From positions 1 to 26,042 of IMG/VR virus record IMGVR_UViG_3300048015_000345: 26,042 bases of DNA. One strand, given 5' to 3'. Source of the DNA: a virus. The notes beneath the pieces were generated by a model. That model made no database searches. It was not told the DNA's origin and saw nothing but the letters and a program-made list of their open reading frames with translations. Both the position numbers and the translations under genes were made by a program. This document shows, piece after piece, positions 1 through 17,380 of this stretch. Each line of letters starts with the position of its first letter. Position 1 is the first letter of the stretch.

Positions 1-666
1 GTGCTCGCCCGCATTCATTCTTTCGTTCTCGTCGGCATCGACGCCATCGCGTGTGAAGTCGAAGCAGATGTTTCACAGCGCGGCCTCGGCAAAGTTACGC
101 TCGTCGGGCTGCCGCAGGCGGCGGTGAAGGAATCGGTTGAACGGGTTCGCCGGGCGATCATCAATTCGGGGTTTTCGTTTCCGGGGCATGCGGTGCTGAT
201 CAATCTCGCGCCGGCGGATGTGAAAAAAGAGGGGCCGAGTCTGGATTTGCCGATCGCGCTGGGGCTGCTTCGGGCGACGAATTTTATCAATACCGATCGG
301 CATAAGGATTTTCTGATCGCGGGGGAACTGGCGCTGGATGGGCGGTTGCGGAAAATCAAAGGGGCGTTGTCGCTGGCGTTGCTTGCAAGATCGCTGGGCA
401 AAACCGGCGTGATTCTGCCGGAGGAAAACAAGCGCGAAGCGGCGGTGGTGGAGGGGATCGAAGTGTATGCGGTTTCGTCCCTCAGCCAGGCGGTGGCGTT
501 CTTGAATGAGATGCTGCCGATCGCTCCGTATGAATTGGACGGCGAGCCATACGCGGTGTCGGCCATTTCATCGCCGCTGGATTTCGCCGATGTGCGCGGG
601 CAGGAAGCGGTCAAGCGCGCAATCACCATCGCGGCGGCGGGATCACACAATATTCTCATGTTGTGA
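1..666 (+). pseudogene. comM: ComM/YifB N-terminal fragment, disrupted by the prophage
   Basis: This is the host gene at the left edge. The product, read from a GTG start, is the N-terminal Lon-protease-like/ChlI domain of the ComM (YifB, Mg-chelatase-like) AAA+ family, with typical stretches such as ARIHSFVLVGIDA near the start, GLPQAAVKESVERVR (about 36-50) and LAPADVKKEGPSLDLPIAL (about 69-87). The last residues, VRGQEAVKRAITIAAAGSHN then ILML, are the segment that in intact family members leads directly into the Walker A loop GPPGxGKT. Here a stop codon follows at once, so the AAA+ domain is missing; family members are normally about 500 residues and this one is 221. ComM is a hexameric branch-migration helicase used in natural transformation. 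The fragment is probably non-functional. The remainder of the gene should lie beyond the other end of the element, outside the window. Confidence 0.9.
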
Positions 667-731: not shown

Positions 732-1142
732 TCACGGCACCGGTTGCAGGTGCAACTTCCATAAAATCCAACTGGCGACGACGACCCCGGCAATTTTGAT
801 TGCAAAATCCAGAATCGTTTTCCAACGATCCTGCCCCCGTTCATCATCGCCTTCGACGGCCCTGAGCCGGTCACCCAAAACGGCAAGGGTGCCGGAAAGC
901 CTTTCCAGCTTGTCACCGATCTTTTTGAATTCGGCCTGCTCGCTTTCGATGAGGCAAATACGTTGGGAAATTTCATTGACCTTTTCTGAGGTCCGGCCCT
1001 GCTCGGTTTGCACTTGCCCAACCGAATAACTTACCCCGTGCAATCTTTCATCCAACCGGCCCAACGTGGCATTGACCATGCCCAACGAATCTTGCAACGT
1101 GTAAAGATTCAAACGGGGTTGTTCGATTCGCTCATCACCCAT
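732..1142 (-). CDS. XhlA/holin-like membrane protein with coiled coil
   Basis: The 136-residue product, read from the ATG at 1142, is a charged helical segment followed by a single hydrophobic C-terminal segment (about residues 106-128, around FAIKIAGVVVASWILWKLHL) and a very short tail. This is the layout of XhlA/haemolysin-type accessory lysis proteins and some holins: a coiled coil plus a C-terminal membrane anchor. It is the last phage gene before the chromosome, a common place for lysis functions. A longer reading from the GTG at 1190 would overlap the upstream glycosyltransferase gene. The 1142 start is preferred because TACATA sits 5 nt upstream of it, as at eight other genes here. No endolysin lies beside it, so the lysis role is inferred from layout only. 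Confidence 0.6.
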   Translation of the reverse strand: MGDERIEQPRLNLYTLQDSLGMVNATLGRLDERLHGVSYSVGQVQTEQGRTSEKVNEISQRICLIESEQAEFKKIGDKLERLSGTLAVLGDRLRAVEGDDERGQDRWKTILDFAIKIAGVVVASWILWKLHLQPVP

Positions 1143-1147
1143 GCCTG

Positions 1148-1153
1148 TATGTA
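1148..1153 (-). promoter_or_regulatory. TACATA box before the XhlA-like gene
   Basis: TACATA on the minus strand, 5 nt (CAGGC) before the ATG at 1142 and immediately after the TGA stop (1154-1156) of the glycosyltransferase gene. It is one of nine such boxes placed 4-5 nt from a start codon. Confidence 0.5.
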
Positions 1154-2665
1154 TCAACGAATCGAACCCCTTTTGCCTCCACACCCGCACCCCTTGCGGG
1201 CCTTCTCAGGCACTTTGACCGGTGCCTTTGTGTCAACATTCAAATGAGCAAACACGGCCCCCCAAACGGCCTCGGGGTTGGTCCATGCACTTTCGGGCAA
1301 TTCAATCATCGTGCCTTTGTTGGCCCCCTTAATCAATTCTTTGTAGCTCCACCAATGATAATGGTTCGGTGGTGAGAACATGATTGTTGGCGTGTCCATC
1401 ATTGCGGCCAAATGCGAAACACCCGTATCACCGCCCAAATAAATTCGGCACTTGCCGAGCAAATCCACAGTGCCTGCGGTCGACCCGTCCGGGTGATCCC
1501 ATGCTCTTGCATCTGCTTCCACGTCAACCGATGTTTCGGGCCGTCCAACCAACCCAACTGTTAAACCGGCAGCACGCAAGCTCTGCACGACCTCAGTCCA
1601 GTGTGTCCAATTTTTTTCTTTCCCGTGTTCCCGATATCGAGGGCATACGGCAACGTCGATGTTGGGCAACACCGATTTCACTGAGGGCATGAATTTCGTT
1701 TCAAGGTGACCCCATGCCCAGGGGTTTGGGTAGTCGCCTTTTAGAATGGCATGATGAGGAAATCTATCGGCAAGAATTGCACGGGTTCTAATGTCATCAC
1801 CGCTACCATCTTCGCACCGGTGACTATCCGGTATTCCCTCAGGCCAATCATAAAAGAACTCAGTTGCATGGGGGTACAAACATTCTTCACCACGGCGGCA
1901 ACACACAACAATGTTTTGGGCATTTAGTTCATGCACCCAACGAACGTGCCGACAAATCATCCAACCGAATTCACCATAGTACGGCATCACAACGGCGTTG
2001 GTTAAATTCCGAACGGGGTGATAAATCGCAGGTTCCTCAGGGTCAACCGGACGTGAATCGGAACGGTAAGTCATTGACCCGCCGCCCGGCAACACCGCAA
2101 TTGGAAAACCGGCCCAATGAATCATCGTGCCGAGGCGAAGCTCGCAATAGGCCCCGCACATAGGCAACTTGCTAACCTCAACCAATGCCCGACGTGAGAG
2201 CATTAACCCCGACATTGGCGAAACGGCAACCGCATGAGGAACCCAATCATTGGGCAGGTTGTTCAACTCATGCCAATACACCCAATCATCACGACCCCTC
2301 AACACCGTATCGGCGGCGGCAGCATCGGCATTCCACACCGACCGATAGAACGAACGAACCCCAACCGAGGCATAGGTGTCATATTCAAGAACGATATATC
2401 GTTGCGCTTCAACACGGGCCGGTGAGTTGAACCATTCCAGAATGACCAAATCCAAATTGGCCCAATTGGAACCACTTGCAACCCGCCGGACCTCAACCGC
2501 ATTAGGCAAGGGGTTAGCCCGATATGAGGCACACGCAGGGCCTCCGTCGTCGCACCATAGGGGAATGATTGGCACGTCGGGATTGTGCCGTTGAATTGAT
2601 TCCAAATTCTGGCAGGTGACCTCATCATTTTTATGGTGCGTAAACAGAATGACACAATCCAACAT
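1154..2665 (-). CDS. Two-domain glycosyltransferase (GT-A-like plus GT9-like)
   Basis: The 503-residue product appears to join two sugar-transfer domains. The N-terminal half (about 1-215) looks like a GT-A nucleotide-sugar fold: it opens with CVILFTHHKNDEVTCQNLESI and has an acidic metal-site-like motif VLEYDTY at 92-98. The C-terminal half (about 220-470) resembles GT-B heptosyltransferase/ADP-heptose-type (GT9) enzymes, with the nucleotide-binding signature GGDTGVSHLAAMMDTPT at 411-427. The protein ends in a short basic Cys/Gly tail (KGCGCGGKR). The ATG overlaps the stop of the GT25 gene (TAATG), so the two are translationally coupled in the tail operon. The family assignment of the N-terminal half is tentative. 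The substrate could be the Ser-rich tail protein or host surface glycans; the sequence does not say which. Confidence 0.75.
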   Translation of the reverse strand: MLDCVILFTHHKNDEVTCQNLESIQRHNPDVPIIPLWCDDGGPACASYRANPLPNAVEVRRVASGSNWANLDLVILEWFNSPARVEAQRYIVLEYDTYASVGVRSFYRSVWNADAAAADTVLRGRDDWVYWHELNNLPNDWVPHAVAVSPMSGLMLSRRALVEVSKLPMCGAYCELRLGTMIHWAGFPIAVLPGGGSMTYRSDSRPVDPEEPAIYHPVRNLTNAVVMPYYGEFGWMICRHVRWVHELNAQNIVVCCRRGEECLYPHATEFFYDWPEGIPDSHRCEDGSGDDIRTRAILADRFPHHAILKGDYPNPWAWGHLETKFMPSVKSVLPNIDVAVCPRYREHGKEKNWTHWTEVVQSLRAAGLTVGLVGRPETSVDVEADARAWDHPDGSTAGTVDLLGKCRIYLGGDTGVSHLAAMMDTPTIMFSPPNHYHWWSYKELIKGANKGTMIELPESAWTNPEAVWGAVFAHLNVDTKAPVKVPEKARKGCGCGGKRGSIR

Positions 2666-3624
2666 TAGACCCCCAACGCCATTTTAATTTCAACAGGCAA
2701 CCGTTCCATTGCCTCATCTATAGAGGCGGCACACACTGAAAAAACCGGGTCCAATGTGTGCGGTTGCAAGGCCATTGCGAGAGCATGAGGGTGAACGATT
2801 GCAACCACCGAACCGGCGGCAAGTGCATCGACCTGGGACTTCTCGATTTGCCCCCTTAGTTTTCCGATATGCAAATCATCGGGCCTTAGAACGGTCAATA
2901 GTTTTTGCCTTGCCATTTCCTCAACAACGTCGTCGGGTGCGTGCAAAATTAAGATTGGCCTTCTATCACCGCCCATGATCCAATGTTCTGACCCCTTATC
3001 TTTGCCCTCGATATCCGACCAACTCGCCCGTTGTCCGGCAATTTGAATGCGAGGCCCATACACTTTATGTGCCTTGCATATGGCACTAATCAAATGATCG
3101 GCATGGCCTGAGGTCGAAACAAAATGCCGGTAGAGGGTCTTACAGAAATCGAGTGTTGCAATGTAGAAGTGTGTGCGGTTCATTCCCGGCAACTTTAGAA
3201 CCCTATCGTTCATCTTTTCCGGCACCCCATCCCAAGGTTGGTAACCGGGCAACAATAGTTCCCAATCATCGGGAACCGATGATAGGAACCGTTTCATTTC
3301 ACCGACAAAGTCACGACCCCGAAGAACCTCAAAATCATCCTCCAACATGATGATGCCGGGTTGGTTGTTTTCAATTGCGGCACCGAGGCATTCTTCGTGT
3401 GACCTCTTGCACCCATAGGCCCCGGACATACCGCCGCCCAAATGCTCAGGGAGCGGCAAGGCCCAACCGTTGATTGCCTGAAATGTTGTAGGCCATTGAA
3501 ATAGTTCGGACCAACTGCAGGCCCTCAATTGTGCGTGAGTATCGGCCAACCGGTCGGTTCTACTCTTTAGGTTGATGAGAAACACGGGCCATGTTTTGAG
3601 GTCCGCAATTGCCCGGTCATTCAT
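2665..3624 (-). CDS. GT25-family glycosyltransferase
   Basis: The 319-residue product shows the landmarks of glycosyltransferase family 25 (LPS-type sugar transferases): VFLINLKSRTDR at 14-25 matching the family's opening strand, GCKRSH at 71-76, and the metal-binding MLEDDFE at 93-99. The rest is typical in size for the family. It has a good ribosome-binding site, GGAGG, 4 nt before the ATG. The start lies 8 nt inside the end of the Ser-rich tail protein gene, and its stop overlaps the next glycosyltransferase (TAATG). In bacteria this family adds galactose or glucose to lipooligosaccharide, and other members modify proteins. Its position directly after a very Ser-rich structural protein makes tail-protein O-glycosylation a reasonable inference. 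Confidence 0.85.
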   Translation of the reverse strand: MNDRAIADLKTWPVFLINLKSRTDRLADTHAQLRACSWSELFQWPTTFQAINGWALPLPEHLGGGMSGAYGCKRSHEECLGAAIENNQPGIIMLEDDFEVLRGRDFVGEMKRFLSSVPDDWELLLPGYQPWDGVPEKMNDRVLKLPGMNRTHFYIATLDFCKTLYRHFVSTSGHADHLISAICKAHKVYGPRIQIAGQRASWSDIEGKDKGSEHWIMGGDRRPILILHAPDDVVEEMARQKLLTVLRPDDLHIGKLRGQIEKSQVDALAAGSVVAIVHPHALAMALQPHTLDPVFSVCAASIDEAMERLPVEIKMALGV

Positions 3625-5434
3625 TGGCCTCCGTTATTCCCGGCACGAATCGGGGCCGTGCAACCTCAACCGGCGGGCCTTGCCATTCCAGTTTCTTACC
3701 GCTTCCCGATGAGCCTGAGGAATGCGACGAACCTGAAGGGCAGGCACAATCACTTGGCGTGTCGGTGCGTGCTGGCGGCAACGGCGGTTGAGTTGTTGAC
3801 GGCCCCTGCGTGTACCAATAGGCACAGGTCAAAGAACCATCATTACCCGTAGACGTGCCAAACAGGCCCCATGATCCGACCGGCATCGTTTGACCGTTGC
3901 CGTTGATTGGAACCGTTGAACCAGCGGCCCCGAGGTTTTCCAACGACAACCACGCACCGGCGGCACAACTGTATTCTTGCAAGGTCACCCAATATTGCGG
4001 TGTCGTCGATGAACCCGAGGAACCCGACGACGTTGAGCCGGACGATACAGAACCGGACAACGACGAACCCGAACCACTTGCACTGCCAGTTGAACCCGAT
4101 GAGCCTGAGGAACCCGACGATTGAGACGATTGAGACGATCCACCGCCGCCACCGGTTGACGACGAACCGCAGCAACATGGAATAGATGATTGTGAGGATG
4201 AACCATCGGAAAAACTTACGGTGAGGGTGCATCCCGAAATTGAAACATTGGTAACATAGGTGCCGGTGCCGCCACCACCTGAGCCGGAACCCGACGACGT
4301 AGACGTAGACGACGTTGATGAACCTGAGGAGGCACCACTTGAACCCGACGACGGGCAATTGTTGGGTGTATACGTTAGCCCCGCTGATGGTGCCGCCGGG
4401 AATGCCCCGCAGGGTACCGTTTGCTCAGGCCCGTTGCATGTTGCACCGGAAATATAGTAATAGGCATTCTGCCCCGTGCCGGTCCAAACGCCAGTTTGAA
4501 CGCTACCGGTTGGCATACAGTTGACACCGTCACGAATCACCGGCCCCCAGGTCTTAGTCTGACAGTTGTAGGTTGCCGAAAAAGCGAAATAACAAGTGAA
4601 TGCCCCGCCTGAGGAACCGGAACCCGATGAACTAGACGAACCGCAATTAGGTGTCGTGGTTGGTAATGTCGTTGGTTCCGCCGGGAAGTTGCCGCAACCG
4701 TGCGTCTGCTCAGGGCCGGGGCAGGGGTTGCCTTGAATGTACCAATATGCTGAGGTGCTATTGGGGTTAGCTTGAACCCAGGTGTTGAATTGCAATGCCC
4801 CGATTGGCATACAATTCACGCCAGATTTTTGAGGCGGTCCCCATACTTTTGTTATGCAATTATAAATCGACACATAGGCAAACACGCAGGCATAGTTGCC
4901 CGATGAACTAGACAACGACGACGTGCCTGAGCCGGGGCAACAGGTGCCTGCCCCAGGTGCCGTTGAAGAGGTCGCATTTTCATAGGCAAAGGAATAAACG
5001 GGCGTGCGGTCATTCCCCGGTGTGACCTCGGGGAAATCCATCCTCATCCACACAATCGGTGACCCCTGAACCGGCAATACAAATAATGACGACGATATTG
5101 ATTGTGAATCCCCTTGAATTCCCGAGGCCGTGTTGCTGGCCTCAACCGCATTTAATGCGTAGGTCGTCGCACCGTTGCAACAATCACCCGTGCGGCCATT
5201 CTCTTTATTCACCCACTCATCATTAGAATCACGCACGACCTCAACCCAACCATATTTCCAACGGTTCGGGGCAAAGGTGCAATAGCATTCAAGCCGTGAC
5301 CAAAACCCCCGTTCGTTATAGGATCGTTTCAACGAACGATTGCCGATGTTGTTCACCGGTTGGTTGTTCACGGACTCCACGGCGGCAACGATTTTTTTCG
5401 CTGCCCCCAATGTGAATGATGCGGTTTGTGCCAT
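3617..5434 (-). CDS. Ser/Gly/Cys-rich modular tail protein
   Basis: The 605-residue product has an N-terminal domain (about 1-155) and then three related Cys- and Trp/Tyr-containing modules at about 181-255, 279-349 and 480-555. They are separated by low-complexity linkers made almost only of Ser, Gly and Thr (about 160-178, 262-278, 360-393 and 412-478). Modules one and two share clear landmarks: YNCxTKxWGP, GVNCMPxG, AYWYI or YYYI, then GPEQTxxCGxFPA. A further cysteine cluster (PCCCG) lies near 420. The start overlaps the upstream stop (TAATG). Position after the tape measure suggests a tail-tip or receptor-binding protein displayed outside the virion. The paired cysteines suggest disulfides, and the Ser/Thr linkers are plausible O-glycosylation substrates for the two glycosyltransferases that follow. 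I recognise no named family. Confidence 0.7.
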   Translation of the reverse strand: MAQTASFTLGAAKKIVAAVESVNNQPVNNIGNRSLKRSYNERGFWSRLECYCTFAPNRWKYGWVEVVRDSNDEWVNKENGRTGDCCNGATTYALNAVEASNTASGIQGDSQSISSSLFVLPVQGSPIVWMRMDFPEVTPGNDRTPVYSFAYENATSSTAPGAGTCCPGSGTSSLSSSSGNYACVFAYVSIYNCITKVWGPPQKSGVNCMPIGALQFNTWVQANPNSTSAYWYIQGNPCPGPEQTHGCGNFPAEPTTLPTTTPNCGSSSSSGSGSSGGAFTCYFAFSATYNCQTKTWGPVIRDGVNCMPTGSVQTGVWTGTGQNAYYYISGATCNGPEQTVPCGAFPAAPSAGLTYTPNNCPSSGSSGASSGSSTSSTSTSSGSGSGGGGTGTYVTNVSISGCTLTVSFSDGSSSQSSIPCCCGSSSTGGGGGSSQSSQSSGSSGSSGSTGSASGSGSSLSGSVSSGSTSSGSSGSSTTPQYWVTLQEYSCAAGAWLSLENLGAAGSTVPINGNGQTMPVGSWGLFGTSTGNDGSLTCAYWYTQGPSTTQPPLPPARTDTPSDCACPSGSSHSSGSSGSGKKLEWQGPPVEVARPRFVPGITEANE

Positions 5435-6327
5435 TAGCTCAGGCCCCCAAAGAATGCCGTGAAGTCTGCCTCCTGCTCAATATTGAAAGTGAGGAACACC
5501 GGTTGTGCGCCGGGTGCCAACTCATCCCCGTCGCCGTCCAACAATGCCGGTGCCGAAAGCAGGTCACCGTTCTTATCCTTAATCTGAACCAATTCATCGT
5601 TGTCGTCGGTCGTGTAATAACCGGCGTCCAACACATTTTCCGTGAACCCATCGGTTCTAACAAGAAGGTTGATTGTCACCGTGTAAGTTGCGGTGCCATC
5701 ATTCAACGGGATTGAACCACTTTGTTCAGCATCCACACATTTAACGGTGCGTGTGTCAAATGATCGTGAGATACCCGGCAAGTTAAGAGTGACGGAACCG
5801 GAATTAACCTTGCCCCTCACACCATTGAATGATGCCGATTGTTCCAATGTCGTTTGATAAGAGATTGAAATCGTTTCATCGACATAGGTCACCGTCAAAG
5901 CGGGGTCAAAGGGTTGATTTGCTGAGTTGACGATTGCATTGTTGTCGTTGTCAAAGACGGCATTTTGTTGGTAATCCTGCCCTGCGAACGTAACATTTAC
6001 GTTCCATTTGGTGTTAGATTGTGAGGGCGTATATTGCCAAAGGCCCTGTATCTGCACCGCATATGTGTATGGTCCAATGCGTGTTGGTTGTGATGAGTTG
6101 ACTAGAAACAACGTGCCGTCATATTCCAGATACGAACCTAGAGCCGGAACGGTGTTGGTGCCGTCACTGGCGGTCATTGCCGATACAGGGTCACCCCGCC
6201 AAGTTTGATCGGTGGTTGCACTCCATGTTTGCGTGACCGTGACCGTAACAGAACCATCAGTGCCAACCTTGCCGGTCACCTGATCTTCTCTAGTGCGGTC
6301 TAATGCTACTGTTGCCCATGATCCCAC
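5434..6327 (-). CDS. Putative tail-tip (distal/minor tail) protein
   Basis: The 297-residue product is rich in beta-strand-type sequence and contains no motif I can name. The reading starts at GTG 6327, where GGGGGA lies about 4 nt upstream, 12 nt after the tape-measure stop; an ATG two bases away is in another frame. The C-terminal part has acidic, Asp/Asn-rich stretches (about 240-270: DDNDELVQIKDKNGDLL, DGDGDEL) that could bind Ca2+. In siphoviruses the gene after the tape measure usually encodes the distal tail protein or another baseplate component, so the call rests mainly on position. The stop overlaps the start of the Ser-rich protein gene. Confidence 0.55.
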   Translation of the reverse strand: MGSWATVALDRTREDQVTGKVGTDGSVTVTVTQTWSATTDQTWRGDPVSAMTASDGTNTVPALGSYLEYDGTLFLVNSSQPTRIGPYTYAVQIQGLWQYTPSQSNTKWNVNVTFAGQDYQQNAVFDNDNNAIVNSANQPFDPALTVTYVDETISISYQTTLEQSASFNGVRGKVNSGSVTLNLPGISRSFDTRTVKCVDAEQSGSIPLNDGTATYTVTINLLVRTDGFTENVLDAGYYTTDDNDELVQIKDKNGDLLSAPALLDGDGDELAPGAQPVFLTFNIEQEADFTAFFGGLS

Positions 6328-6339
6328 ATTCCCCCAATC

Positions 6340-8163
6340 TTAAAAGTTTATAATCGTGTTCTGGTCCTGCTGGTCATCCTGTCCAAAGTTATAGAGTTGT
6401 TGCAGGTAATATTGAATTTGCTGTTGAATGGCTAAATTTTGTTTTGCCAGTGCAACCTGTTGTGCGGCGGGGTCTGCGTGTTTCGGTTCCTGAGGTAACC
6501 GGAAATCAAACCGCCGGACCTCGGCCCCCGCATGTTTATTTTCATCTTTGTTGGCCTTGCCTAATTCTTTGCCCTGCTTGTCTATTGCCTCACTGGCCTG
6601 TTGAGCCGTCAAAAGACCCTCGGTATATAGAGCGTTGATTTTGTCCGTTTCATCTTTGAATTTCTCCAAAGGTGACATTGACGATTCAATCAATCGCTTG
6701 GCATCCTCACTATCTTTTTTGAATTGTTCGGCGGCATCACTCTGCTTTTGCAAGGCATCGGCCTGCTTTAATTGGGCATCGTTGGCCCCGTCCCTTTTGA
6801 GGTCGTCTAATTTCTTTTTTGCTTCGGTCATTCCGACCTGTGCGGCCTCACGTTGTAGAGAGGTCATTTCCTCAACTACTTTTTTCTGTTGTTCGATGGT
6901 TTTTAGGGCGGCGTCCTCGGCCTGCTGGCGTTGGTTGAGTTGGGCAAACATATCCCTTTGCCCGGCATCGTCGGTGTGAAGTTTGGCCCATTGTTCGGCA
7001 ACCTTTTCGTCGGCACCCTGTTGCAATGCGTCAATCTTTGCCGCCGTCTCATCCAACTGTTTAGACCATTCTTTCAGGCCCTCGGTGTTCTTTTTGTAGG
7101 TTTCTTCGGCCTTGGTCTTTGCAAGGAGGTCCAATGCTTTTTGGACCTCACCGGCACCGCCGCCTAGTTTGTAAATCTCATCTCTGACTTTCCCCACGGA
7201 GTCGGGTTTCAAGTCGTCCAACTTTTTTTGCAGATCGTCAAGGTATTCGATTACGGGGGAACGTTCGGCCGCACGTTGTTCACCGACGATAGCAATAGAT
7301 GCGGCTTTGGCGGCGTCGGTGATTTTCTGTTGTTGATCCTTTGCCGCATTGGTGAGGCTTAACATCGTGCCTACCAATTGGGTTATGTTGGTGTTGAGGG
7401 TCTTCCATTCAGCGGAACCGGCTGAAGCGTGCAAAAGTTCCTGCCTCATCTGATTCAACACCGGCTGCAACTTGTCACGTTCGGCCTTAACCGAATCGTC
7501 GATGCCCTTCATTTGCTCATCAAATTGATGTTTAAGGTCATCCTGCTTTTGAGCGAATGAGAAATCGACCTCGTATTTCTTGCGAGCCTCAGGGGGCAGC
7601 ATAGATTCGACAACCTTAGCGTTGGCCTCGGCGGCAATTTTCCCCCATTCACGAACGGCGTTGGTCGCATCATGCACGAGCTTGACACGGGTCTCCATGA
7701 TTGCGTTGCCCAATTCTGCGGTCTTATTGATATCGTCGATTTGGGATTTCTCATGCGTGAACATTTCACGAATGTTTTGCCCGGCCTCAACGAATGAACC
7801 GAGGATCGGAATTGATTTACCGATGCCAACGGCAAGGCCGGTGCCGTCGATTTGTCCCTTACGGAATTGGTCGGTTAATTCTGCGGCCTTGCCCGTGGCA
7901 TTTTTGAGTCCCTCACCGAGGAGCGTAATACCGGCAACGGCATAACCGCCCCTGAGAGTCTTTCCCAACTCATCTAATGTTGAACCACGGCCTGCACCGG
8001 ATTTGAGGGAATCGAGAACACCCCTGAGACCACCGACCTCGGTTTTAGTTTGCTGTACCTTTTTACGGAACTTTTCGAGGTCACTTTCGGCCTGATTCGT
8101 GCCTTTGGTGAAGGCATCGCTTTGGGCCTCTAGGGTCGTGACTATTTTGCCAAGTGATGCCAT
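6340..8163 (-). CDS. Tape measure protein
   Basis: The 607-residue product is strongly helical and charged (Lys/Glu/Gln-rich, long stretches with coiled-coil character at about 200-540) with a more hydrophobic Gly/Ala/Leu segment near 70-100. That composition, and its place after the tail-chaperone frameshift gene, are the standard signature of a siphovirus tape measure protein, which sets tail length and passes into the host at DNA ejection. By the usual rule of about 1.5 angstroms per residue it would specify a tail of roughly 90 nm, which is short. The ATG overlaps the stop of the small upstream gene (TAATG), with GGGGG about 6 nt upstream. No lytic domain is visible within it. Confidence 0.85.
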   Translation of the reverse strand: MASLGKIVTTLEAQSDAFTKGTNQAESDLEKFRKKVQQTKTEVGGLRGVLDSLKSGAGRGSTLDELGKTLRGGYAVAGITLLGEGLKNATGKAAELTDQFRKGQIDGTGLAVGIGKSIPILGSFVEAGQNIREMFTHEKSQIDDINKTAELGNAIMETRVKLVHDATNAVREWGKIAAEANAKVVESMLPPEARKKYEVDFSFAQKQDDLKHQFDEQMKGIDDSVKAERDKLQPVLNQMRQELLHASAGSAEWKTLNTNITQLVGTMLSLTNAAKDQQQKITDAAKAASIAIVGEQRAAERSPVIEYLDDLQKKLDDLKPDSVGKVRDEIYKLGGGAGEVQKALDLLAKTKAEETYKKNTEGLKEWSKQLDETAAKIDALQQGADEKVAEQWAKLHTDDAGQRDMFAQLNQRQQAEDAALKTIEQQKKVVEEMTSLQREAAQVGMTEAKKKLDDLKRDGANDAQLKQADALQKQSDAAEQFKKDSEDAKRLIESSMSPLEKFKDETDKINALYTEGLLTAQQASEAIDKQGKELGKANKDENKHAGAEVRRFDFRLPQEPKHADPAAQQVALAKQNLAIQQQIQYYLQQLYNFGQDDQQDQNTIINF

Positions 8164-15394: not shown

Positions 15395-17380
15395 TCAAAC
15401 TACCGTGATAGTGCCTCCCCAATCTTTCGACGGTTCAATTGCGGATCGTTTGGCCTCAGTAAGTGCCGTCACCAATGCGGCAATGCCGTCAATCTTTGCC
15501 CCCCTACGGCCCTTGTAACCATCACCGCCCTTAGTCCCTCTATACCCCGGTTTCACAGGCCAATATCCGCCATGTTTACCGGGTTCTACTTCCACCACTT
15601 CTGCGTGCGCCCTCAACACGGCGTTGGCCTCTATGGTGATACTCCCCTCAGTTAATCTTCTATCCGCCTCAACACACCCAGGCGATACTGAGAACCCCTG
15701 CGCCACCGGCACACACGTCAAACCCTTTTGTTCCAACTGATAAATGACGGCATCGGCCTTATATCGGTCATATCCAACCGTGGTGATTGGGTGTCGTTGG
15801 TGAAGGTCAATGACCCATTGGGCAATACGAGCCTGCACCGCCGGTGTGATCGTCGTTTCATCCAACAACGTGATTGCACCCAATGCCGCCCATTCGTAAT
15901 ACTGGTGACCCTCAGATTTTTGGTACTTGTCCGCCGTTGCCCGTGGCAACCAAAAATGGGATTGAATGTAAACCCGGTCACTTGACCAATAGACGGCAAC
16001 GGCGCAGCACAGGTCATCACCCTGAGATAGATCGAGGGCAACGGTGAGGGTCAACCCTTTGACGGACTCAGGATCAACCGGCCCGGTGTTGGCGTCCCAT
16101 TTCTTTAAGTCAAGCCATTTCGTTGTTGCTTGAACGTGTTGCCCCAAATATAGCTGCCGCCATTCTCTCTCCTGCTCAGGTAAACCCTTCCGGCGTTCCC
16201 ATTCCTTTTGCAAGGCATCTTCCGTGATTGTTACTCCAATCATCGGGTTGGCCTTACGCCATGTTGCAGGATCGTCTATAGGATCGTCCGGGGCAGCTTG
16301 CCAAAGGATCGGGTACAAACCGGGGTCAACTCGCTTGCCGCTGAGAACATCTTCAGCCTCGGCTTGCATGATGCCGTAAAGACCGTCACGGGTTGTGCCG
16401 GTGTTGGTCGCAATCCATGTTAGGGGTTCGGGCCGTTTGATAGTTCTACTTTGTAGGTCGTTGAATGCCTCGGCATTTTTGTTTTGGTGACATTCTTCAA
16501 ATATGATTACACCGGCAGCGGCACCGGCCTTCGGACCTTTGCCCGAAACAATGTCCCAAATGGTGCCGGTCAATTTGTTTTTGATCGAATATTGGTTGAT
16601 CTTAGTTCGATTGAACAATGCCGGTGAGGCTCGAATCATTTCCTTTGCCGGTTCAAAAGTCACCCGGTTTGATTGGGCATAGTCGGAGGCAAGGCAAAAA
16701 ATTTGGTTGCCCGGTTCTGAGCCTAAATAAAATTCATATAAAGCCGCAATCACAAGGATCGGGCTTTTGCCGCAACCGATTGAACCGTTCCAGAATACAC
16801 GTTTTATGCGACGTAATTTTGTCTCACGATGTTTGTAGCCCCACACATCCCTGAGGATTCGTTTCTGTATCTCCGTTAATTCAAAAGGCTGCCCCTTCTT
16901 TCGCCCCCGTGTGAACTTTATATATTTGGCGACAAATTTGATCGGACGTTCGGCGGCATCGGCATCGTAGTAATAGGTTTCATCCTCGGTGAGGTCCAAC
17001 ATTCCCGAGACATAAGGCCGCTGGGGTTCGGGTTCGGTTTCCTGAGCCGTTAAGATGTTGTGACAACTCACACACACCGGCATGAGGTTCGATTGATCGG
17101 TCTTTTCGTATTCGTCGCATTGCGCAAGGGGTTTTATATGATGCACATGCACGGCCCAGGTGTTTTGGCACCGACGGCACGTTGGCGAAATCGAAAGTGC
17201 CTCGGCACGGGCTAATTGCCATGCCTTAGAATTGTAAAATGCCTTTGCCTCAGGGTTCCTTAGATGTTGATCGTAAAAGCTATTCTTGCGAGCGGTGACC
17301 TGGGGTTGATGTTTTGAACACCAACCGGATTTAGTGAGTAATTCGGGGCAACCTGAGTGACGGCAGTGAAAACTTGGCAC
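15395..17380 (-). CDS. HNH endonuclease-large terminase fusion protein
   Basis: The 661-residue product begins with a full phage-type HNH protein: a CxxxxC...CxxH zinc knuckle (C6, C11, C21, H24) followed by the ββα-metal HNH unit with C68/C71, HVHHIKP at 78-84, N98 and CVSCHN at 103-108. After an acidic linker (about 112-140) the large terminase continues in the same frame: Walker A GSIGCGKS (199-206), Walker B VIIFEE (291-296), a nuclease Asp in ALDLSQGDD (448-456), GYDRYKADAV (536-545) and the C-terminal AKIDGIAALVTAL motif (628-640). In HK97 these are two adjacent genes whose products cooperate in cos cleavage. The GTG start lies 4 nt from a TACATA box. The gene is alone between a 196-bp gap and the portal. 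Confidence 0.92.
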   Translation of the reverse strand: MPSFHCRHSGCPELLTKSGWCSKHQPQVTARKNSFYDQHLRNPEAKAFYNSKAWQLARAEALSISPTCRRCQNTWAVHVHHIKPLAQCDEYEKTDQSNLMPVCVSCHNILTAQETEPEPQRPYVSGMLDLTEDETYYYDADAAERPIKFVAKYIKFTRGRKKGQPFELTEIQKRILRDVWGYKHRETKLRRIKRVFWNGSIGCGKSPILVIAALYEFYLGSEPGNQIFCLASDYAQSNRVTFEPAKEMIRASPALFNRTKINQYSIKNKLTGTIWDIVSGKGPKAGAAAGVIIFEECHQNKNAEAFNDLQSRTIKRPEPLTWIATNTGTTRDGLYGIMQAEAEDVLSGKRVDPGLYPILWQAAPDDPIDDPATWRKANPMIGVTITEDALQKEWERRKGLPEQEREWRQLYLGQHVQATTKWLDLKKWDANTGPVDPESVKGLTLTVALDLSQGDDLCCAVAVYWSSDRVYIQSHFWLPRATADKYQKSEGHQYYEWAALGAITLLDETTITPAVQARIAQWVIDLHQRHPITTVGYDRYKADAVIYQLEQKGLTCVPVAQGFSVSPGCVEADRRLTEGSITIEANAVLRAHAEVVEVEPGKHGGYWPVKPGYRGTKGGDGYKGRRGAKIDGIAALVTALTEAKRSAIEPSKDWGGTITVV

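Follow-up and report, generated by a model that had tools for sequence, protein, structure and literature searches.

In mycobacteriophages Che8, Corndog and Myrna, phage-encoded glycosyltransferases (GTs) modify the phages' own capsid and tail-tube subunits at their C-termini (Freeman et al. 2023, as relayed in PMC12363180, PMC12619734, PMC11256854 and PMC10877033). To that extent the remark, in an initial annotation of the DNA considered here, that glycosylated virion proteins are known in some other phages is well founded. In staphylococci, the two GTs SdgA and SdgB are encoded beside their SD-repeat substrate, add sugars to it stepwise and protect it from proteolysis (PMC3794999). Here we analyzed the IMG/VR record IMGVR_UViG_3300048015_000345, a stretch of 26,042 nucleotides (nt; hereafter the window), in which the gene of a Ser-rich tail protein is followed by the genes of a GT25 glycosyltransferase and of a fused GT-A/GT9-like glycosyltransferase. 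Comparative sequence analysis makes it probable that this cassette, which closes the tail operon, serves the O-glycosylation of a virion protein, namely the Ser-rich tail protein.

The three minus-strand open reading frames (ORFs) lie where the initial annotation had placed them (Table 1), and they overlap as it had stated: in the mRNA sense, the tail protein and GT25 genes share 8 nt (GCCAATGAATGACC), and the GT25 and GT-A/GT9 genes share 1 nt (TCTAATGTTG). The gene upstream, 5434-6327, also shares 1 nt with the tail protein gene (AGCTAATGGC). Given these start/stop overlaps of 1, 8 and 1 nt, the four genes are therefore very probably carried on one message; no promoter or terminator above chance was found inside the cassette. 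The assigned place at the end of the tail operon was likewise confirmed, since the cassette follows the tape measure protein (TMP) gene (6340-8163) and 5434-6327, and precedes a small ORF (732-1190) and the host gene comM. The 605-residue tail protein contains 18% Ser, 14% Gly and 10% Thr, and S/T/G-rich runs of 11, 26 and 50 residues alternate with three Cys-containing modules of ~85 residues. Its Ser density reaches 18 Ser in 30 residues (18/30); in 1,291 kb of control sequence (comM loci, mostly planctomycete) no ORF of at least 250 residues reached 16/30.

Single-protein searches of viral contigs with the window GT25, the GT9 protein, the tail protein, the 5434-6327 protein and the portal gave no matches, because the sequences are too divergent. 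The route taken instead led from the host comM match to class genomes, and then to profiles. When 298 Phycisphaerae-class genomes were searched with the window GT25 alone as seed, 10 places were found, five of which (L112, L114, L115, L116 and L117, from three genomes) are of prophage type and directly downstream of a Ser-rich tail gene. Three of these loci, L112, L114 and L116, show the window's order of TMP, tail protein, Ser-rich protein and GT25; the TMP of L114 is strongly supported. The GT25 proteins of these five loci carry a C-terminal sulfotransferase-type domain, confirmed as PF13469 for L114 and for the viral locus L246. At L118 a GT25-sulfotransferase gene stands beside a seemingly decayed tail gene, which speaks neither for nor against the association. 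A search of the class genomes for relatives of the Cys-containing module returned none, a result that is uninformative.

A GT25 profile retrieved 67 viral contigs, and the GT25 genes were grouped at 60% identity into 30 clusters. A Ser-rich ORF ended less than 2.5 kb upstream on the same strand in 9/30 clusters, where 1.4 would be expected for a random position (P≤2e-5, by simulation); as the profile had been seeded mostly with such loci, the fraction is biased upward, but the position test is not. Ser-rich was defined in these tests by thresholds of 12-18/30, and a threshold of 10/30 was abandoned because it was too loose (90 control ORFs passed). By eye, the Ser-rich tail proteins of L116, L117, L136, L138 and L144, all beside GT25-sulfotransferase genes, show a Hint/intein-like segment (NCFLYGTLVRL...) between Ser/Gly-rich stretches, possibly the mark of a self-processing tail protein.

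The reverse comparison started from the tail proteins and disregarded the GTs. The Ser-rich proteins of L112, L114, L116, L138 and others have in common an N-terminal domain, A2, for which no Pfam or PHROG family was found. A search of viral contigs with A2 yielded 80 loci, 10 Ser-rich and 70 Ser-poor, and Ser-rich loci with at least 1.2 kb of downstream sequence were taken as testable. Two of these, L202 (= L203) and L246, are followed by a GT25-sulfotransferase gene, and three (L243, L244 and L255) by a GT4 and/or a radical SAM plus GT2-like protein. Among Ser-poor loci with equal downstream sequence, GT25 was found in 0/45, and Pfam GTs made up only about 4-5 of the 67 downstream proteins. 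Forty class-genome loci selected by A2 score formed an independent set. Both of its Ser-rich loci (L331 and L332) are followed by GT4 plus a GT2-type gene; none of its Ser-poor loci has GT25, and for their 61 downstream proteins no GT is among the Pfam families listed, which are 25 of 28. Taken together, any GT lies downstream in 7/7 Ser-rich loci (L202, L243, L244, L246, L255, L331 and L332) versus at most about 6/81 Ser-poor ones. The corresponding Fisher values, 2.7e-7, or 1.3e-5 if five lineages are counted, overstate independence, since the Ser-rich lineages of the A2 family share ancestry.

The Ser-rich state requires six changes on a tree built from 111 A2 domains, at least four of them forced by well-supported branches, although the bootstrap had yet to stabilise completely and the tree contains some long branches. 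The partner enzymes differ between Ser-rich lineages (GT25, GT25-sulfotransferase, GT4/GT2), and shared descent of one block therefore does not explain the link. Ser-rich tail genes and GT genes are thus found together in several lineages, a pattern that, on the sequences compared, supports convergence on the combination rather than one inherited block. The five GT25-free loci (L243, L244, L255, L331 and L332) amount to a second form of the cassette, in which the Ser-rich tail gene is followed by GT4 and GT2-type genes, with a radical SAM gene between them in L243, L244 and L255. Among the 298 class genomes, 70 carry the A2 domain, with about 130 occurrences in all and up to eight copies per genome (G153). 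Tail genes of the A2 family and of the AAxRI family described next were seen in at least 250 viral contigs and about 130 genomic places.

The window tail protein belongs to another family, with the N-terminal motif F[ST]xxAAxRI..., which recurs in L102/L104 and L152/L159/L161 (a weak alignment of small numbers). The L102/L104 tail genes are not Ser-rich and no GT25 was seen near them, whereas those of L152/L159/L161 are Ser-rich and are followed by a GT25-sulfotransferase. At L034, which has a homologue of 5434-6327, neither a Ser-rich gene nor a GT was recognised by eye. As far as such small numbers and weak alignment allow, this pattern agrees with the A2 result.

The window GT25 matches PF01755 with E 1.2e-4 and 22.5 bits, just below the 24-bit cut-off, which its homologues in L114 (39.1 bits) and L246 (36.9 bits) pass. 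In the AlphaFold2 (AF2) model it has a predicted GT-A fold of the GT25 type. The best structural match is the catalytic domain of COLGALT1 (Z 19.8, 2.7 Å over 188 residues, 18% identity), followed by mimivirus R655 (Z 17.3) and a bacterial b1,4-galactosyltransferase (b1,4-GalT; Z 15.7); GT25 entries occupy ranks 1-10 (Z 15-19.8), clearly separated from N-acetylglucosaminyltransferases, which score 13 and below. A phmmer search of the PDB with the GT25 protein gave no match, and in the annotated phage collection only weak GT25 matches were found, in unannotated metagenomic records.

That the third gene is a GT-A/GT9 fusion is borne out by homologues of both halves that occur as free genes, the N-half as open frames of 243-347 residues and the C-half of about 310-340 residues. 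The GT9 match (PF01075; E 6e-9, 36 bits, cut-off 22) covers residues 338-445, and the N-half matched no Pfam family. The AF2 model of the 503-residue fusion (pLDDT 45) is too poor for a claim about its fold; phmmer against the PDB gave marginal heptosyltransferase matches, a profile built from the whole fusion contained no conserved stretch that could be used, and no relative was found in the annotated phage collection. Stand-alone C-half homologues occur in L102, L104, L281 and L283-L286, phages whose terminase, portal and capsid are related to those of the window phage (nearest by portal, L281, 52%). In L102, L104, L281 and L283-L285, not in L286, this gene lies directly or one gene behind a head-tail adaptor homologue in the head-tail connector cluster, a placement that counts towards the glycosylation of virion proteins; the window differs in having the GT9-like enzyme at the tail-operon end, with an added GT-A half. 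By eye, free GT-A-half homologues in host genomes (loci L107-L109) stand beside UDP-galactopyranose-mutase-like fusions and giant YD-repeat-like surface proteins, hinting at the use of galactofuranose.

A working model can be proposed from this arrangement. In the tail-tip-position protein, mucin-like Ser/Thr/Gly stretches would separate compact modules. The translationally coupled GT25 would add the first sugar to Ser/Thr hydroxyls of the S/T/G-rich runs while the protein is in the cytoplasm, either ahead of tail assembly or in its course. The GT-A/GT9-like fusion might then extend the glycan by one or two sugars, with late expression of the coupled genes supplying substrate and enzymes together. 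The glycosylated stretches could serve as rigid stalks that face the host and resist proteases, or as carbohydrate ligands. The gene order and overlaps, the GT families and motifs, the modelled GT25 fold and the repeated co-occurrence of Ser-rich tail regions with GTs are what the sequences show; the substrate, the order of sugar addition, the linkage, the sugar, the modified residues and the benefit are inferred.

The initial annotation had suggested O-glycosylation of the tail, with modification of the host receptor as the alternative. The comparison clearly favours the former over the latter, since GTs track the Ser-rich tail region across several lineages and GT families and the modelled GT25 fold is nearest to a protein O-galactosyltransferase; the suggestion as a whole is partly supported. 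Members of the GT25 and GT9 families are chiefly known for their part in lipopolysaccharide (LPS) biosynthesis. Lysogenic conversion, in which the two enzymes change a host surface polysaccharide and block superinfection, and owe their place to the gathering of accessory genes at the late-operon/attachment-site end, would fit these families, the distance of only ~0.5 kb between the cassette and the comM junction, and the UDP-galactopyranose-mutase-like neighbours (seen by eye) of the N-half in host genomes. It does not fit the overlap of the enzyme genes with the tail gene, and we judge it unlikely because it predicts no dependence of the GTs on the Ser-rich state of the tail. GtrABC serotype-conversion cassettes, which are also GT genes of temperate phages, comprise the flippase GtrA, the bactoprenol GT GtrB and the multi-pass membrane GT GtrC. 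Here no flippase and no clear membrane-embedded GT is present: no Pfam or PHROG match to the GtrABC components was obtained in the cassette, and neither enzyme has convincing transmembrane segments (the GT25 hydrophobicity maximum, 1.68, falls inside the predicted alpha/beta part).

The enzymes might instead act on other virion proteins (capsid, tail tube or neck), as in mycobacteriophages, with the Ser-rich stretches as mere flexible linkers. L102, L104 and L283, which keep a GT9-like gene behind the head-tail adaptor gene and whose tail protein is not Ser-rich, would be at home under this explanation, and it may apply to the GT9-like half alone. For the cassette as a whole it is quite improbable, as it leaves unexplained why GTs come specifically after Ser-rich tail genes in the A2 family. 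A chance meeting of Ser-rich linkers with GT genes, each of which is common near the tail ends of these phages, would account for the many phage GT25 genes with no Ser-rich neighbour; set against the position test, the A2 reverse test and the repeated state changes on the tree, it is very hard to credit. Several observations count against tail O-glycosylation itself: about 20/30 GT25 clusters lack a Ser-rich neighbour, Ser-poor tail genes are now and then followed by GT2 genes, and the window's own tail family can be compared with few relatives only. To these are added the relatedness of the Ser-rich A2 lineages and the breadth of the GT25 family, which also includes LPS and lipooligosaccharide enzymes, with bacterial b1,4-GalTs close behind COLGALT1. 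On balance, we retain O-glycosylation of the Ser-rich tail protein as the probable function.

The window covers the left portion of a Phycisphaerales provirus that has entered comM, and the host is a planctomycete bacterium. Beyond the comM fragment it is a provirus of siphophage type with its genes on the minus strand, among them genes for a Prim-Pol primase, a GDSL-lipase protein, an HNH-fused large terminase, portal, protease, capsid, connectors, major tail protein and tape measure. The terminase and its N-terminal HNH endonuclease domain form a single ORF (15395-17380), as in L281; in L102/L104 the HNH is a separate gene. The protein encoded at 5434-6327 had neither a PHROG match nor a significant Pfam match. 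Of the 80 comM loci examined, three (L034:10001-10672, L038 and L071) have comM broken where it is broken in the window, immediately ahead of the Walker A motif, and L034 has a prophage there; on these sequences comM seems to serve repeatedly as an attachment site in planctomycetes. The window junction (644-666) bears CACAATATTCTCATGTTGTG, the ends of which form a CACAA/TTGTG inverted repeat; the L034 junction likewise reads CACAA...TTGTG, and intact comM has the first half only. This is a possible recombination core.

Table 1. Features of the window and of the tail glycosylation cassette proposed in it (aa, amino acids; MAGs, metagenome-assembled genomes).
Feature	Position	Strand	Basis or remark
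IMG/VR record IMGVR_UViG_3300048015_000345	1-26,042		whole window
Host comM 5' part, first 221 codons, ending just before the Walker A motif; provirus left junction	1..666	+	77% identical to intact comM of Phycisphaerales MAGs L002/L003
Short ORF with one hydrophobic segment (KD19 1.91), weakly hemolysin/XhlA-like; holin-associated?	732..1190	-	phrog_937, E 0.002
Fused GT-A + GT9-like glycosyltransferase, 503 aa	1154..2665	-	PF01075 in C-half
D-T-G-x-x-H motif (aa 413-418), GT9-like half	1412..1429	-	alignments A8/A9; D413, G415, H418 invariant
E94-x-D96 motif (DxD-type), N-terminal GT-A half	2378..2386	-	invariant in A7, six sequences
GT25 glycosyltransferase, 319 aa, GT-A fold plus extra C-terminal alpha/beta part (aa 224-319), predicted	2665..3624	-	Pfam; AF2 pLDDT 86
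E95-D96-D97 (EDD, metal-binding) motif of GT25	3334..3342	-	invariant in alignments A1 and A6, 16/16 rows
Ser/Gly/Thr-rich protein, tail-tip position, 605 aa, proposed glycosylation substrate	3617..5434	-	ORF; N-terminus related to tail genes of L102/L104 (Ser-poor) and L152/L159/L161 (Ser-rich)
Diverged module 3, aa 479-566	3737..4000	-	
Longest S/T/G-rich segment, aa 426-475, predicted main O-glycosylation region	4010..4159	-	
Second S/T/G-rich segment, aa 366-391	4262..4339	-	
Cys-containing module 2, aa 278-360	4355..4603	-	52% identical to module 1
Short S/G linker, aa 265-275	4610..4642	-	
Cys-containing module 1, aa 180-264	4643..4897	-	
Conserved tail protein upstream of the cassette	5434..6327	-	homologues after TMP in L102, L104, L281, L283-L285; match in L034
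Tape measure protein (TMP)	6340..8163	-	phrog_1538, E 1e-6

A wider proposal can be put forward tentatively, as one that could well turn out either way but that we would not yet favour: planctomycete-associated siphophages, a widespread and undescribed class, may have repeatedly evolved mucin-like tail tips, whose Ser-rich stalks would be glycosylated and often sulfated (GT25 plus PF13469) or tailored (pyruvyl transferase, methyltransferases) by enzymes encoded around the stalk gene. If O-glycosylation of the window tail protein is true, the targets of virion glycosylation, which in mycobacteriophages are capsids and tail tubes, would come to include a Ser-rich tail-tip protein, and this in a phylum whose phages have been little studied. 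The sequence rule of a Ser-rich tail gene followed by a GT or GT-sulfotransferase gene would predict which environmental phages have glycosylated, possibly sulfated tails. The proposed glycosylation would also tie a defined enzyme to a defined substrate, so that it is testable by co-expression.

Among the known systems, the mycobacteriophages have phage-encoded GTs that modify structural proteins of the phage, and those of the window, whose genes are linked to structural genes, probably do likewise. They differ in that the target proposed here is a Ser-rich tail-tip-position protein, its gene overlapping that of the enzyme, in that the enzyme is a GT25, fused to a sulfotransferase in many relatives, and in that the host is a planctomycete. 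COLGALT1 (GLT25D1), the collagen hydroxylysine galactosyltransferase of family GT25, shares the GT25 catalytic fold and has a protein as its acceptor, but that acceptor is hydroxylysine in collagen, and its identity to the phage enzyme is 18%. Mimivirus R655 and the PBCV-1 capsid glycosyltransferase are also virus-encoded GT-A enzymes (Z 17.3 and 11.2), the PBCV-1 entry being titled as acting on the major capsid protein; these are giant viruses of eukaryotes, not tailed phages. In SdgA/SdgB and systems of the SD-repeat (SDR) and serine-rich repeat protein (SRRP) type, as here, GT genes stand next to the gene of a Ser-rich substrate, which is a proposed one in our case, and rarely where it is not Ser-rich (7/7 versus at most about 6/81 for A2). 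Those systems use SdgA/SdgB- or GtfA/GtfB-type enzymes on cell-wall-anchored adhesins, and the staphylococcal one attaches N-acetylglucosamine with non-GT25 enzymes; here the enzymes match GT25 and GT9 profiles and the gene of the proposed substrate lies in a phage tail operon; by analogy, the window cassette would work like an SDR/SRRP system and is not a member of it. Our searches of the open literature turned up no description of a Ser-rich tail gene paired with GT25 or GT25-sulfotransferase, an absence that is weak evidence. Phage virion glycosylation itself is already known.

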